Below are positions 1,355 to 41,448 of a stretch of 41,718 bases of DNA, piece by piece. Every line of letters starts with the position of its first letter. Position 1 is the stretch's first letter. A program made the position numbers and the translations under genes. The notes under the pieces were generated by a model. That model saw nothing but the letters and a program-made list of their open reading frames with translations, had not been told where the DNA came from and searched no databases. Source of the DNA: Acinetobacter sp. (lineage in GTDB: Bacteria; Pseudomonadota; Gammaproteobacteria; Pseudomonadales; Moraxellaceae); the NCBI GenBank assembly GCA_031277915.1, contig JAITLL010000043.1, positions 1-41,718 of the forward strand, written 5' to 3'.

Positions 1355-1684
1355 TTAAGAGTCTATAAAACCATGACGTTTTTTATAGGCTTTGCGGTCA
1401 TAAGAAGGGATGTTTGATCGCTGGAGATCAATCGCAAGTTGTTTCTTGTGTTGGAACTGAACTTCGTTAACAAGAGCAGCATAAATTTTGGGTCGATCAG
1501 TTTTAAACTTTTCTACATCCAATAGAATCTTATCTTCATTCTTGACAATGTATACAACAGAACCATTGCCATTCGTTTCATAAACAGTCCAACCAAGCCG
1601 TACAGTGTAGAGGCCAGACGTCTGATTTTTCCCTAAATAAGATTTAAAACCATCAAGATGAGGGCGAGCATAAGTAGTCATCAT
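1355..1684 (-). CDS. Hypothetical protein, 109 aa
   Basis: This is a soluble, basic protein of unknown function. It has a predicted beta-rich centre (YTVRLGWTVYETNGNGSVVY) and a Lys/Arg-rich C-terminus (AYKKRHGFIDS). It begins with two Met codons. GGAGG at 1689-1693 lies 4 nt from the first and 7 nt from the second (1681), so the second Met is the better start. There is no signal peptide, membrane segment or recognised motif. It is transcribed alone toward the terminator palindrome at 1304-1327. Confidence 0.6.
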   Translation of the reverse strand: MMTTYARPHLDGFKSYLGKNQTSGLYTVRLGWTVYETNGNGSVVYIVKNEDKILLDVEKFKTDRPKIYAALVNEVQFQHKKQLAIDLQRSNIPSYDRKAYKKRHGFIDS

Positions 1685-4931: not shown

Positions 4932-5008
<77 letters not shown>

Positions 5009-5181: not shown

Positions 5182-5415
5182 ATGATTGTGAATATAGTAA
5201 ATGAGTGGCACATTGCCACAGCCGTAAATGGCAATGAAATTAATGTGAGAGTAATTCCTCATATACGTAAGCAAAACTCGCTTGATGGCTATCGTTGGGT
5301 TGAAGTTGGAAAGAAAATTCAGCTTCAAACTGGTGAAGAAATTGAGTTGAACCAAGATGGTAAGAGCTTTTATGCTGCATTCAATCAGCTTTATCGTCTA
5401 AATTGTTATTGCTAA
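5182..5415 (+). CDS. Hypothetical protein, 77 aa
   Basis: This is a small soluble protein of unknown function (MIVNIVNEWHIATAVNGNEI...), probably beta-rich, ending in LNCYC. It sits between tRNA-fMet and the prophage-like repressor and has its own downstream terminator. The ribosome binding site is weak (GAG just before the ATG), and a GTG two codons downstream is an alternative start. It may be cargo or debris of the adjacent prophage remnant. No family is recognised. Confidence 0.5.
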   Translation: MIVNIVNEWHIATAVNGNEINVRVIPHIRKQNSLDGYRWVEVGKKIQLQTGEEIELNQDGKSFYAAFNQLYRLNCYC

Positions 5416-5530: not shown

Positions 5531-6202
5531 TTAGCCCGCTCGCCAGAACTGACGACCCATCACCTTAAAGTTTTTTCCGTTCTCTTCGGTTACGCGGCGA
5601 TCTCTAAATTTTTCATTTAAGCTATGCAAAATTAAAGAACCATCTGCCTCTTTAAAAATTTGTTTAATCATTCCTTCGCCAGCAAAGTAAACCGCATAAA
5701 TCTCACCATCAATGACTTCAGTCTGAGAAATATCAATACCGACCAGATCTCCATCTTTAATGTAATCGGTCATACTATCGCCTTTAGCTTTAATAATACG
5801 CATGCATTCTTGGGGAACACGTTTTTCTTTAAAGAAAGAAGCTGGAAAAGGGATTTTTCCATTCATTGCATCGAAATGGAATTCGATGGACTCACCTGTA
5901 CCACAGGAAAAGCTCGCCTCAACCACCGCGATCCATACATATTGATCTGCTGCATCGCCACTCACAACAGTAGGGCTAAATACATCACTTTCCCTAAAAG
6001 AATCTTCTGTATTTCCTGTGGTAAGCCAATACGCATTTACACCTAAAAACTGTGCAATTAATGGAAGAAACGCAGATTTTAAGTTTTTTCCCGATTCTAA
6101 AGCTTGATAAGCAGGCTGAGACATTTTTACTGCTTCAGCAACTTCTGCCTGAGTTTTTTTAGCTTTAATTCTTGAATCTTTTAAACGGTCTTTAAGAGCC
6201 AT
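5531..6202 (-). CDS. CI-type self-cleaving phage repressor (XRE HTH + S24 peptidase)
   Basis: This 223-aa protein has two parts. The N-terminal XRE helix-turn-helix (about residues 5-60, with KKTQAEVAEAVKMSQPAYQALESG) binds operators. The C-terminal LexA/S24 peptidase domain carries a Cys100-Gly101 cleavage site (SFSCGTGE), nucleophile Ser143 in KGDSMTDYIKDGD and general base Lys180 in GMIKQIF. The Ser-Lys spacing of 37 equals that of LexA. Such repressors cleave themselves when RecA filaments form after DNA damage. It is transcribed leftward and away from three operator-like palindromes at 6235-6295, as lambda cI is from its operators. Acinetobacter lacks LexA but carries the UmuD-like regulator UmuDAb. 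This protein is more CI-like because of its full XRE domain and lambdoid operator array. Confidence 0.9.
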   Translation of the reverse strand: MALKDRLKDSRIKAKKTQAEVAEAVKMSQPAYQALESGKNLKSAFLPLIAQFLGVNAYWLTTGNTEDSFRESDVFSPTVVSGDAADQYVWIAVVEASFSCGTGESIEFHFDAMNGKIPFPASFFKEKRVPQECMRIIKAKGDSMTDYIKDGDLVGIDISQTEVIDGEIYAVYFAGEGMIKQIFKEADGSLILHSLNEKFRDRRVTEENGKNFKVMGRQFWRAG

Positions 6203-6234
6203 AATGATCGCACCAGCTAGCTTATAACAAATAT

Positions 6235-6295
6235 ATAACTAAAGTTATATTTAGTAAAATAACTATAGCTATTGACCTATAATAACTATAGTTAT
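6235..6295. promoter_or_regulatory. Three-site operator array for the CI-like repressor
   Basis: Three near-identical 14-bp palindromes lie between the repressor start and the rightward genes: ATAACTAAAGTTAT (6235-6248), ATAACTATAGCTAT (6259-6272) and ATAACTATAGTTAT (6282-6295). The centre-to-centre distances are 24 and 23 bp, the geometry of lambda OR1-3, which allows cooperative dimer binding on one DNA face. The leftmost site extends to a longer palindrome (6233-6250). All are seen directly in the sequence; binding by the adjacent repressor is inferred. Confidence 0.85.
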
Positions 6296-6298
6296 AAT
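6272..6298 (+). promoter_or_regulatory. PR-like rightward promoter overlapping the operators
   Basis: TTGACC (6272-6277) and TATAAT (6293-6298) are separated by 15 bp, slightly short of the optimum. The -35 box abuts the middle operator and the -10 box overlaps the right operator, so repressor binding would block RNA polymerase. The promoter points toward the holin and endolysin genes. Confidence 0.6.
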
Positions 6299-6810
6299 AT
6301 CAGTTGTATCTTAGGGTGAATAGATAAAGTTTAAATTGTATTTGAATCACTATTTATAGCCTTATCAATATGTTGAGATGAAAGCTAAATGTGTTTTGTT
6401 TCTAGAGGAAGCAAAATAAAAGGGGATAGCTCAATTATTATTTACAGATAGGCTATCAAAAACAAAAAATGAAATAAAAAAAGCCCGATTCCGTGGATCA
6501 GGCTTAATGTTCATCGATAAAGGGTATCAAGAACATGACAAATCTAGCAAAAAATTTAATTCGCCACAAAATTTTCCGATATACGGCAATATGTTATCTC
6601 AAATTTTTGGTCAAAAACCTACAAGTGAGTCAACTCATTAATCCTTTAGTTCTGGCTTATTTTTATGGCAATACCATGAATTTTGAAACTAAAAGATTGA
6701 TGAGCCTAAGAGGCTTTTGCATAGCAAAGTGGTAAGTAAAGAATATGAAAAATAACAAGGTAGTACAGAGGCTTATTTTTCAAGCTTTGCTTTTTAAACA
6801 GGATTGAATT
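6299..6810. other. Remnant of a phage early region without a recognisable cro
   Basis: Between the rightward promoter and the holin there is no convincing gene. A 66-codon frame (6535-6735) lacks a good ribosome binding site and domain signal. At 6475-6505 a hairpin carries its U-tract on the minus strand. This part is best explained as the junction left when the central part of a prophage was deleted, joining the immunity region to the lysis genes. Confidence 0.5.
6475..6505 (-). terminator. Leftward intrinsic terminator
   Basis: Read on the minus strand, AAGCCTGAT-ccacgga-ATCGGGCTT is followed by a T-run. It would stop leftward transcription before the repressor gene. No leftward gene now lies to its right, which suggests that the gene it once served is deleted. 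It has no U-tract for plus-strand transcription, so rightward read-through to the lysis genes remains possible. Confidence 0.7.
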
Positions 6811-7200
6811 ATGGAAAATTTTTTAAGACAAAGTGTATTAACCACTGTTTTTCATCTCTATGGTACCGTCATGATGGTTGCTCTAGCAATTACCTTAGTT
6901 GTAGCTGTTGTTCTCATTATGCGCTTTCCACGTTCGCCTCAAGAATGGGTGGTAGCTTTGATCTGTACTATTGTTTCAAGTTTAACTGGTGGCTCATTCA
7001 TTATTATGAAATGGGACTTACATGAATGGGTGACAGATATTTGGGGAATGATCACTTTAGGTGGCTTCTTCTTTATTTGCGGATTACCTGGCTGGGCAAT
7101 TGTGAGATGGATTTTTAATTTCATTAATAAACAAGAAGGAAAGACCATTGTTGAAGTAATGAAAGACTTAAAAAAAGCAAAAGATGATATTCAAAGCTAA
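6811..7200 (+). CDS. Putative phage holin, three TM segments
   Basis: This 129-aa membrane protein has three hydrophobic segments at about residues 15-38, 46-65 and 78-100. The first includes MMVALAITLVVAVVLIMRF. It ends in a charged cytoplasmic tail (VMKDLKKAKDDIQS). The topology, size and position 36 bp before an endolysin gene match a phage holin, which opens the inner membrane to let endolysin reach the wall. AGGA lies about 7 nt before the ATG. I assign the function from topology and context, because holins share little sequence. Confidence 0.7.
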   Translation: MENFLRQSVLTTVFHLYGTVMMVALAITLVVAVVLIMRFPRSPQEWVVALICTIVSSLTGGSFIIMKWDLHEWVTDIWGMITLGGFFFICGLPGWAIVRWIFNFINKQEGKTIVEVMKDLKKAKDDIQS

Positions 7201-7236
7201 CACTTCACAGGCTGAAATATAGATGAGGACAATACA

Positions 7237-7782
7237 ATGAATATTGAACAATATTTAGATGAACTTATAAAACGTGAAGGGGGATATGTGAACGACCCAA
7301 GTGATCATGGGCATGCCACTAAATTTGGTATTACACAAGCTGTTGCCCGTGCTTATGGATATCAAGGCAAGATGGAAAATTTATCTTTAGACGTGGCTAG
7401 AGATATTTATAAAAAGCAATATTGGTTTGAACCACGATTTGAGCAAGTTAATTTGATTAGTTCCCCCATAGCTGAAGAACTATTCGATACTGCTGTTAAT
7501 TGTGGTATTGGTTTTACAAAACCACTATTACAACGTGCTTTGAATTTGTTGAATAGACAAGGCAAAGAAGGTTGGGTTGATCTTGTTGTCGATGGTGAAT
7601 ATGGGCCAGCCACTTTAAATGCTTTATCCATGTATATTCAAAAACGCGGTAATGAAGGGGAAAAGGTGTTGGCACGACTTCTTAATATTATGCAAGGTCA
7701 GCACTATATTGAAATCACCGAGAAAAACTCAAATTACGAGCAATTTTTTTATGGATGGCTGGCGAAGCGAGTAAACTTATGA
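7237..7782 (+). CDS. Phage endolysin, GH108-type N-acetylmuramidase
   Basis: This 181-aa lysozyme-like protein hydrolyses peptidoglycan glycan strands. The N-terminal glycosyl hydrolase 108 domain shows KREGGYVNDP with catalytic Glu14, then DPSDHGHATKFGIT. A C-terminal peptidoglycan-binding type 3 region (LVVDGEYGPATLNAL onward) follows. It closely resembles my memory of A. baumannii phage endolysins such as PlyF307. The usual GG before ATK(Y/F)GIT is G25-H26 here. There is no signal peptide, so export would depend on the adjacent holin. GAGGA lies 8-9 nt before the ATG. No Rz/Rz1 spanin genes follow; a strong terminator does. Confidence 0.92.
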   Translation: MNIEQYLDELIKREGGYVNDPSDHGHATKFGITQAVARAYGYQGKMENLSLDVARDIYKKQYWFEPRFEQVNLISSPIAEELFDTAVNCGIGFTKPLLQRALNLLNRQGKEGWVDLVVDGEYGPATLNALSMYIQKRGNEGEKVLARLLNIMQGQHYIEITEKNSNYEQFFYGWLAKRVNL

Positions 7783-7856
7783 AAAAGCCAACTTGCTAAA
7801 ATTGTTTTAAGCATAAATGCGATGAAACGTTTAACAAGTTGGCTTTTTCTTTTTTA
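7782..7856 (+). terminator. Terminator after the endolysin
   Basis: AAAAAGCCAACTTG pairs with CAAGTTGGCTTTTT, a 14-bp stem with a roughly 39-nt loop, followed by further Ts. It closes the holin-endolysin transcript and faces the converging LysE-type gene. Confidence 0.85.
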
Positions 7857-7876
7857 ATAGGGTAGTGCTTAATGGA

Positions 7877-13125: not shown

Positions 13126-14388
13126 ATGATTAATAAAACTTTACCTCGAAATGCATTACCTTCATTTTTTAAAGATGTCGAAATTGTGGGTTCTGCACAG
13201 GATGATTTTCTAAAATATCAGTTAGATAATCAATCAACTGTATTGAAAGACACAAAAGATGAAATTGTACTTGGTATACAAAATACTCCACGGTTAGTTA
13301 CCTCTGATCGAGTAAAAAGCCTTTATGTAAATAATGATTTTAAAGCTATACAAAATCTACAAAAGGAGGCGCAAAAAGATATAGATCCCATTCATGAAAA
13401 TATTAAACTTCACAAAGAGAAAGCTTGGACACGCGTACGTGGAAAAGATGGAAAGGAATTTTATCTAAGCTATTCAAAAAAAGGCAGTATGTGGGTTTTC
13501 CCCGAAGAAATGCGTACCATGACTGACGCTGAAGGAAATGTCACATACCAGTGTGTTATGCAAATCGGTTCGTACACTGCAACTGGAAATATTGTAGGTA
13601 TACATTCTTACAATTTCAGCTATAAATCAATACTTCCTATTATGGCTATAGCACTTATTGTTGCTGTGGCATTGGCGGCTATTCTATTTCAAGCATTGGC
13701 ATTTGCTGTTACAGCTTTATCGTTAGTCTTAGCGACTGCTGCATCTGCTCTTGGTTTTGCTTCTTTTAGTTTTACAATCGGTCCTGTGGGTTTATTTGTT
13801 TTAGCCGCAACAGTTATTTTTATTATTGTCTTTATTGGGTTAATGGCATTATGGAATTTTATAAATAGGAAATATACGATTAGGTTGCAGGTTTATAATT
13901 GGGATAAAAATTATGACTGGAAAATTGTAGATGATTTTAAGTCGAACTCTATTACTCCAAGTACTAAGGATCCAATTTTAATTGATATTCCGAAATTTGA
14001 TCCAGAAGTAATTTATCCACCTGGTTTTGACCCAGTAGAACCTATTGATCAAATTTGTCATTATGCAGTTATTATTTGGGAAAATGATAATACCTTTTTA
14101 GAAGGATGTTCGATGGCATTAAGATTCAAAAGAGGAGATAATCCTAATTATGGATTTATGTGGGCTTTTTCATGTCCACGCTTTAAAGACAATCAACAAG
14201 CTGCTACAAATCAGTTAACTACAGCTAAAAATTATCGTGAAAAGGAAGTCAAATGGAATAAAGATCCTTTGGGATTTACAATCTATGCAGGTGATGATCA
14301 AAAATCAAATATTAAATTTGGTTTGTCAGCATTAAGTGGTGCAGATGATGACCTTTACACAATAAATATTAATATTTGTCCAACCTGA
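13126..14388 (+). CDS. Unrecognised 420-aa protein with central membrane block (possible pore-forming protein)
   Basis: No family is recognised. The N-terminal 160 residues are hydrophilic, without a signal peptide, and include a beta-like stretch (GKEFYLSYSKKGSMWVFPEE). Residues about 167-250 form three long hydrophobic segments rich in Ala, Val and Ile. From there to the end the protein is soluble and predicted beta-rich, with a Pro/Asp-rich linker (DIPKFDPEVIYPPGFDPVEP) and a block ending in SCPRFKDNQ. A hydrophobic hairpin between two soluble domains, with no signal peptide, recalls membrane-inserting toxins. The C-terminal block loosely recalls actinoporin-like folds, but this is inference only. 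It stands alone with its own terminator. GGGAAT before the ATG is a weak ribosome binding site. Confidence 0.6.
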   Translation: MINKTLPRNALPSFFKDVEIVGSAQDDFLKYQLDNQSTVLKDTKDEIVLGIQNTPRLVTSDRVKSLYVNNDFKAIQNLQKEAQKDIDPIHENIKLHKEKAWTRVRGKDGKEFYLSYSKKGSMWVFPEEMRTMTDAEGNVTYQCVMQIGSYTATGNIVGIHSYNFSYKSILPIMAIALIVAVALAAILFQALAFAVTALSLVLATAASALGFASFSFTIGPVGLFVLAATVIFIIVFIGLMALWNFINRKYTIRLQVYNWDKNYDWKIVDDFKSNSITPSTKDPILIDIPKFDPEVIYPPGFDPVEPIDQICHYAVIIWENDNTFLEGCSMALRFKRGDNPNYGFMWAFSCPRFKDNQQAATNQLTTAKNYREKEVKWNKDPLGFTIYAGDDQKSNIKFGLSALSGADDDLYTININICPT

Positions 14389-41267: not shown

Positions 41268-41448
41268 TGCCAGTCGGTTGTCGCAGACCGTTCCGAAAAA
41301 GCATTAAAGGTTTTATATCTTTAGTGTGTACACCCTCGCGCCCCCTCTATGGTGGAACGGAGGGGGACACCTTCGGGTGTGCTGGGTTTTTTCGGCCAGT
41401 CTGCGAACCCCCTTCGTTCTGCCACCATAATTTTAATGTCGGCAGAAC
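41268..41448 (+). ncRNA. C4-like antisense immunity RNA region (P1/P4 type)
   Basis: The transcript can fold as a cruciform. A long outer stem pairs TATGGTGG-AACG-AGGGGG (41348-41366) with CCCCC-TTCGTTC-TGCCACCATA (41408-41429). Inside it are two small hairpins, ACACC-ttc-GGGTGT and CTGG...CCAG. Upstream, GGTTGTCGCAGACCG (41276-41290) is nearly complementary to the loop sequence CAGTCTGCGAACC (41397-41409), differing by two extra bases and one mismatch. In phages P1 and P4, C4 RNA processed from the leader pairs with such sequences and shuts off the downstream anti-immunity or replication genes. The assignment is by structure and motif memory. Confidence 0.6.

Follow-up and report, generated by a model that had tools for sequence, protein, structure and literature searches.

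A 41,718-nucleotide (nt) stretch of Acinetobacter sp. DNA (assembly GCA_031277915.1, contig JAITLL010000043.1; hereafter the window) carries, near a tRNA-Met gene, a stand-alone unit made up of a CI/S24 repressor gene, operators, a putative rightward promoter (PR), a gene for a holin-like protein and a gene for a GH108 endolysin. Comparison of its copies indicates that this module, which we also call the island, is almost certainly inherited and selected, and that it has been retained throughout the Acinetobacter calcoaceticus-baumannii (ACB) group points to a use for the bacteria. Judged from sequence, this domesticated lysis module is real, under selection and shared by the whole group, and it probably includes an antisense RNA. 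The reading we favor, with a probability of roughly 0.5, is that of an ancient domesticated lysis module that is locked by CI, perhaps by the RNA as well, and would be opened by RecA-driven cleavage of CI.

The module, which a sequence-only reading of the window had put forward, without other phage genes, as the arrangement to look for in the genus, lies at one site in all 17 assessable ACB genomes. We searched 176 Acinetobacter species genomes at the DNA level with a 1,596-base query of xseA plus tRNA-Met and found a full-length match at 82% or above in exactly 18; elsewhere, xseA matched at 69-77%, mostly in part. The whole module is present at the same site, from tRNA-Met to lysE/proC, in 17 of the 18 (16 relatives and the genome of the window), and in the remaining one (G109) the contig ends just past the CI start, so the locus cannot be assessed. 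The island-bearing set includes A. nosocomialis, A. seifertii, A. calcoaceticus, A. pittii and A. lactucae. PLSDB has three chromosome-sized A. baumannii records with xseA, and all three carry the island intact. These PLSDB "plasmids" (NZ_CP104448.1, NZ_CP077849.1 and NZ_CP064203.1) are 3.7-4.1 Mb records carrying xseA and the island. Two GenBank entries named "Acinetobacter phage MD-2021a" (L031, CAKLQF020000006.1; L032, CAKLQH020000032.1) match the island as well; they contain ordinary bacterial genes (xseA and proC and, in L031, phenol hydroxylase genes) and look like bacterial contigs. Elsewhere, we sampled 20 of 55 other places with a GH108 gene (11 in other species and 9 second copies in ACB genomes). 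None has a CI of the island type within about 10 kb, as searched with seven CI queries at E 1e-10, which other CI types would escape; a holin relative is near in 11 of the 20.

Conservation of this kind has to be weighed against the possibility that the repressor is retained on other grounds while the lysis genes hitch-hike neutrally, or that the unit is a young deletion remnant, the alternative named in the sequence-only reading. All 17 copies are free of stops, with a CI of 223 amino acids (aa), a holin-like protein of 129-130 and an endolysin of 181, which confirms that the lysis pair is intact. The median ratio of nonsynonymous to synonymous divergence (omega, dN/dS; pairwise Nei-Gojobori [NG86] medians over 17 sequences, MD-2021a excluded) is 0.018 for CI, 0.063 for the holin gene and 0.094 for the endolysin gene; the comparison genes give 0.044 (xseA), 0.055 (LysE), 0.074 (proC) and 0.077 (a 77-aa open reading frame [ORF] beside tRNA-Met). 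Median dS is 0.8-1.0 throughout, except for 0.39 in the 77-aa ORF. Lysis genes that stay intact in every copy at a median dS of about 1 and a median omega of 0.06-0.09 argue against hitch-hiking, as does a natural contrast: in three genomes (G085, G047 and G062), a second lysin beside a MarR-like gene, 8-22 kb from the island, has decayed to a broken piece of about 45-53 residues, as would be expected of an unselected remnant. We found no such piece in the window, where the matching MarR-like gene adjoins tRNA-Gly. The one observation that speaks for hitch-hiking is that, of the three genes, the lysin is under the weakest constraint among five A. baumannii-like haplotypes (two carry the name A. 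baumannii, and the rest are 15-44 differences away from 2239), its ratio of nonsynonymous to synonymous polymorphism (pN/pS) being 0.30, compared with 0.064 for CI and 0.090 for the holin gene. A young remnant is refuted by the presence of the module throughout the ACB group together with the low dN/dS, and purifying selection on holin and endolysin, which had been proposed alongside it, is borne out. The sequence comparisons thus strongly support selection on an intact repressor-lysis module, and we regard neutral hitch-hiking or a young remnant as very improbable.

Table 1. Features of the island and its surroundings (positions in the window unless a locus is named)
Feature	Position	Strand	Basis or remark
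tRNA-Met (locus marker, context)	4932..5008	+	adjoins island in 16/16 relatives scanned
77-aa ORF	5182-5415		beside tRNA-Met, after xseA
CI-type repressor (HTH + S24 autoprotease), 223 aa	5531..6202	-	domain and PHROG matches
Operator 3 (TATAACTAAAGTTATA palindrome)	6234..6250	.	16/17 positions invariant in 17 islands
Operator 2 (palindrome)	6258..6273	.	14/16 positions invariant in 17 islands
Putative rightward promoter PR	6272..6300	+	consensus match TTGACC-17-TAATAT; region conserved across islands
Operator 1 (ATAACTATAGTTATA palindrome), overlaps putative PR	6281..6296	.	sequence
Predicted antisense RNA, ~60 nt: C-rich-loop hairpin, then intrinsic terminator	6475..6536	-	folding, conservation
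Extended -10 element TGnTA[AG]ATT, putative promoter of predicted antisense RNA	6541..6549	-	17/17 islands, 13 nt before hairpin 1
Two palindrome-like blocks (CCGATATACGG; TTTTTGGTCAAAAA) upstream of antisense-RNA promoter	6573..6619	.	conserved
Holin-like membrane protein, 129 aa (phrog_1024)	6811..7200	+	PHROG match, hydropathy; intact 17/17
GH108 endolysin (N-acetylmuramidase) + PG_binding_3, 181 aa	7237..7782	+	domain matches; intact 17/17
Terminator-like hairpin after endolysin	7781..7857	+	inverted repeat, 95% complementary, then T-rich sequence
Broken endolysin pieces beside MarR-like gene	L310 9262-9414; L311 4455-4297; L312 5485-5351		G085, G047, G062

The repressor has the features of a lambda-type CI, namely a helix-turn-helix (HTH) domain and an S24 domain (PF00717, 1.9e-20) with a cleavage site and a Ser/Lys dyad, and it matches the phrog_4 repressor family at 1.4e-42. 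Cys100, Gly101, Ser143 and Lys180 are identical in all 17 island copies, and these are the autocleavage residues that had been assigned from the window alone. The three spaced operators described with them were likewise recovered as palindromes, and 19 of the 25 positions in the block over operator 1 and the putative PR (6272-6296) are invariant in the 17 islands. The proposal of a rightward promoter under the operators fared less evenly: a consensus match is present, but such sites are no commoner than chance between 4600 and 8900 (13, against a shuffle mean of 19). In its own genome, which is 91.84% complete, the operator pattern TATAACTATAGTTAT matches with 0-1 mismatch only at the island operators (four matches, being two sites on both strands), and with up to 2 mismatches it shows no excess (29 matches, compared with 60 for a reversed-pattern control). 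The idea of CI as master of a regulon is unsupported, operators not being in excess genome-wide.

The endolysin combines a GH108 domain carrying the E-G-G motif (3.7e-24) with PG_binding_3 (9e-16), as a GH108 endolysin should, and its REGGY motif is present in all 17 copies. The holin-like protein matches phrog_1024, a family of unassigned function, at 2.6e-53, and no curated holin model matched it; hydropathy suggests about three membrane spans, so that it fits the description of a holin as a small membrane protein with one to three spans adjoining an endolysin. The wall attacked by the effector is probably that of the cell itself. The nearest solved relative of the endolysin is Sen1395 (6v3z, 7.3e-50), related along the whole enzyme, which we take to be a member of the TtsA muramidase group. 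This kinship raises the alternative of non-lytic muramidase export, in which the holin-like protein and the GH108 enzyme would open the peptidoglycan and release protein or vesicles without killing, as in TtsA-type (type 10) secretion. The NCBIfam model for holin-associated muramidases points the same way, yet matches with 62.8 bits, far under its cut-off of 240, and we noticed no spanin on reading the ORFs, a dedicated search not having been made. However, no candidate cargo ORF was noticed from tRNA-Met to lysE in the islands, where no systematic cargo search was made, and a phage CI circuit would be odd as the control of routine export; we judge this alternative quite improbable. The terminator reported after the endolysin is present in the window as a hairpin with 20-nt arms (7781-7800/7830-7849) and a T-rich tail, but only 6 of 16 relatives keep a stretch of five T in the 110 nt that follow the lysin, and 10 lack it.

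A fifth part of the module, overlooked in the sequence-only reading, is probably an antisense RNA encoded in the leader between the promoter and the holin gene, and we think that the RNA predicted there does most likely exist. The minus strand of the leader folds into two hairpins, and the terminator-like site was also found by an independent search. Across the 17 copies, 58 of 60 positions in 6477-6536 are invariant; among four-fold sites, the invariant ones number 9/124 in xseA, 7/75 in CI, 1/31 in the holin gene and 1/29 in the lysin gene. Between two species groups, the leader is 84-89% identical over 356-425 nt, versus about 74-75% from holin to lysE. The two blocks upstream (6573-6592 and 6605-6619) have 16/20 and 12/15 positions invariant and no named binding protein. 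Two overlapping ORFs can be read in the leader of all copies, and we considered whether small proteins explain its conservation. Their lengths vary, the first ends after 10-19 codons in 11 species and the second lacks a start codon in one genome (G146), and the conservation is therefore better explained by a minus-strand RNA; a short conserved leader peptide is still conceivable. Separately, 11 of the 17 islands (L066-L076) have an 84-aa ORF (MTTAMQNRAK...) between leader and holin, with a pooled omega of 0.126 and no matching family below E 0.01.

A profile search with the RNA element, keeping matches to E 1, found relatives in prophage and other genome loci. We aligned 29 of 47 distinct segments (3 from islands and 26 from elsewhere, 10 of the latter with E of 0.001 or less and the remainder weaker), omitting 5 islands, 11 near-copies and 2 poor matches. 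By mechanical tests, a preceding ORF of at least 60 aa terminates at the RNA in 22 of the 26 relatives, and in 23 a following ORF of at least 45 aa has its first start codon inside the RNA segment, in antisense. Two of nine terminator pairs show changes on both sides. The stem changes C-G to U-G, U-A to U-G and A-U to G-U pair on the minus strand and would not on the plus strand, which appears to favor the minus strand, with the qualification that choosing matches by terminator likeness biases toward this result. No Rfam family reached its cut-off over 6200-6900; the best, RF02278 (Betaproteobacteria toxic small RNA), gave 21.8 bits (E 0.063) against 50, and the element does not belong to it. 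No close copy was found elsewhere in its own genome. In lambda, OOP is a leftward small RNA with its terminator at the cII end, and the predicted RNA may be called OOP-like by position. The second early ORF of phage A785.1 is CII-like, the sole such case shown, and the hairpin of that phage differs. In a prophage small-RNA family of Acinetobacter (in loci such as L134, L141, L169 and L128), a C-rich loop is frequent and the RNA runs antisense to the beginning of the gene that follows the second early ORF.

The relatives of CI indicate where such a unit could have come from. Prophages with a related CI have the order CI, operators, cro-like gene, second early ORF, hairpin and next early gene, and two prophage-like loci (L089 and L115) have operators almost identical to those of the island. 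In the island, about 180 nt separate operator 1 from the RNA element, too little to accommodate cro and cII. The ACB ancestor would have carried an ancient prophage of which hardly more than the repressor, operators, antisense-RNA gene and lysis pair survived; the RNA gene would once have closed the early regulatory operon, and selection would have kept the remnant as a lysis module. Island lysins and island holins each form a clade (Shimodaira-Hasegawa-like approximate likelihood ratio test [SH-aLRT] 99 and 98, the only support computed for these quickly built trees, which contain 36 lysins and 35 holins). The only two "viral" rows within these clades carry LysE and proC, as well as CI and the 77-aa ORF in one case; both represent the island itself. 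Exchange of lysis genes with phages left no sign in the trees, which held 16 other lysins and 15 other holins and from which the named phage lysins of the lysin search were excluded.

The same phage relations invite a different interpretation, an immunity or abortive-infection island in which CI, and perhaps the RNA, would act in trans on related incoming phages with shared operators or a shared early-operon junction, and titration or cleavage of the repressor during infection would let the lysis pair kill the cell. Constraint within the module is strongest in CI and the RNA, phages vB_AbaM_ABMM1 and A785.1 carry a CI at about 80% identity, and the near-matching operators and the antisense position of the RNA over start codons also fit. 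Loss of CI would presumably be costly while the lysis genes are intact, as in an addiction module. Against this, the operator region of A785.1 differs by eye from that of the island, and the PADLOC matches were limited to weak HTH ones for CI, with nothing for the lysis pair. We hold immunity to be an unlikely primary role. A combined version, also rather unlikely, is a core-genome unit of "guarded suicide" across the whole ACB group, in which a captured immunity region (CI and OOP-like RNA) would be wired onto the lysis pair, giving phage immunity plus lysis upon loss of the repressor through DNA damage or an infecting phage, with the RNA under host control via the two upstream palindromes.

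Activated RecA promotes the self-cleavage of CI repressors. Under the reading we favor, CI would hold PR off, and the convergent RNA, whose sequence is complementary to the lysis leader, would damp leaky transcription as a second lock. RecA-stimulated cleavage at Cys100-Gly101 would free the promoter, and holin and muramidase would then break the wall of the damaged cell, releasing DNA, vesicles or enzymes. We infer that damage would open the module and lyse the cell, the cleavage residues being conserved in the sequences compared; DNA damage has about an even chance of being the trigger, and the second lock is a more tentative proposal. According to the part of PMC3978071 available to us, Acinetobacter is without LexA, which makes a phage-type repressor a plausible damage switch. 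Several points weigh against the reading. In the available part of the mitomycin C transcriptome sequencing (RNA-seq) of strain ATCC 17978, the induced lysozymes A1S_2016 and A1S_1600 and the induced holin A1S_3755 all lie in prophages (PMC3978071, Table 3), and in that of PMC10808703, the 17978 prophages account for 47 of the 50 induced genes newly reported, and three lie outside. Neither portion names a lysozyme or holin outside the three prophages, island carriage by 17978 being itself unconfirmed. The gap from operators and promoter to the holin gene, about 510 nt in the window and about 1,000 nt in 11 species, counts against it as well, as do the assignment of the holin by position and hydropathy, the lack of a spanin on reading the ORFs, the unevenly kept T-run and the lysin pN/pS, which is the weakest point for selection on lysis. 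Table 3 of PMC3978071 also has, in the part available, five starred (non-prophage) "hypothetical" genes. The accessible portions of PMC6561030 and PMC11472050 contain no mention of lysozyme, endolysin or holin that we could find. The essential repressor GO593_00515 was considered as the island CI and rejected, since the available text of PMC10865783 has it as an Arc-type protein in a prophage, a different gene.

We found no earlier description of the module among the matches listed in open-licence PMC text. The lambda immunity region resembles it in a divergent CI, three operators over a rightward promoter and a leftward small RNA with an intrinsic terminator where cII would end; unlike in lambda, PR of the island would face the lysis genes, cro and cII have no place, and the RNA would be antisense to the lysis leader. 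Acinetobacter temperate phages share a homologous CI (80% in A785.1, 57% in vB_AbaS_TRS1), a holin-like protein (74% in Ab105-1phi) and a GH108 lysin (A785.1). A785.1 differs, however, in that its lysis genes are about 6 kb away on the opposite flank of CI, that two ORFs intervene between holin and lysin, and that it possesses cro, cII-like, replication and tail genes. Compared with the TtsA/Sen1395 muramidases, the enzyme of the island has an adjacent holin-like gene, CI control and no cargo gene noticed nearby. The genes for explosive cell lysis in Pseudomonas aeruginosa and the DLP12 lysis genes of Escherichia coli are located in tailocin or larger cryptic prophage clusters, whereas in the island the repressor, RNA and lysis pair stand on their own as one unit, which is fixed throughout a species group. 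The DLP12 genes resemble it as phage-type lysis genes proposed to serve the host, and the same is proposed for endolysin-driven explosive lysis in the part of PMC4834629 available to us. If the reading we favor is correct, the ACB group, including naturally transformable hospital species, would have fixed a damage- or phage-triggered self-lysis unit that could supply neighbors with DNA, vesicles and enzymes under antibiotic stress. It would be a very small domesticated prophage and, because it can be removed whole, a clean natural test of selection for programmed lysis.

The sequence-only reading had also held that no integrase, replication, packaging, head or tail genes lie between or around the parts of the island. 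We compared 16 ORFs of the window (6 ORFs and 10 neighboring ones, a part of its total) with PHROGs; island genes aside, none matched integrase, replication, packaging or structural families, and the site does not hold an intact or inducible prophage as far as these ORFs show. The claim stands to that extent, but lone phage-like hints occur nearby. The 109-aa ORF at 1355-1684 (minus strand) matches phrog_1824 (1e-29) and is also near the island in 15 of 16 relatives, and region 13126-14388, without a PHROG match, is the counterpart of a coding sequence called "phage protein" in L031. The annotated neighbors of the island in L031 are host genes, with one "phage protein" about 5 kb off and a separate prophage from about 14 kb. 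We set the island start after the 77-aa ORF because relatives of that ORF occur across the genus (155 of 175 genomes). Insertion into tRNA-Met as an integration mark is unsupported, given these genus-wide relatives and given that, of 26 direct-repeat families, the 20 listed include none in which the tRNA end recurs in att-like fashion. In 11 non-ACB loci around the 77-aa ORF, 10 of them with tRNA-Met beside it, there are no island genes; no true empty site was seen among them, lysE and proC also being absent. C4-type RNA is the group 1 small RNA of A. baumannii in the available part of PMC5320573, and the window carries one at 41345-41429 on the plus strand (Rfam RF01695, 80.7 bits), a separate, already known type rather than a part of the module.

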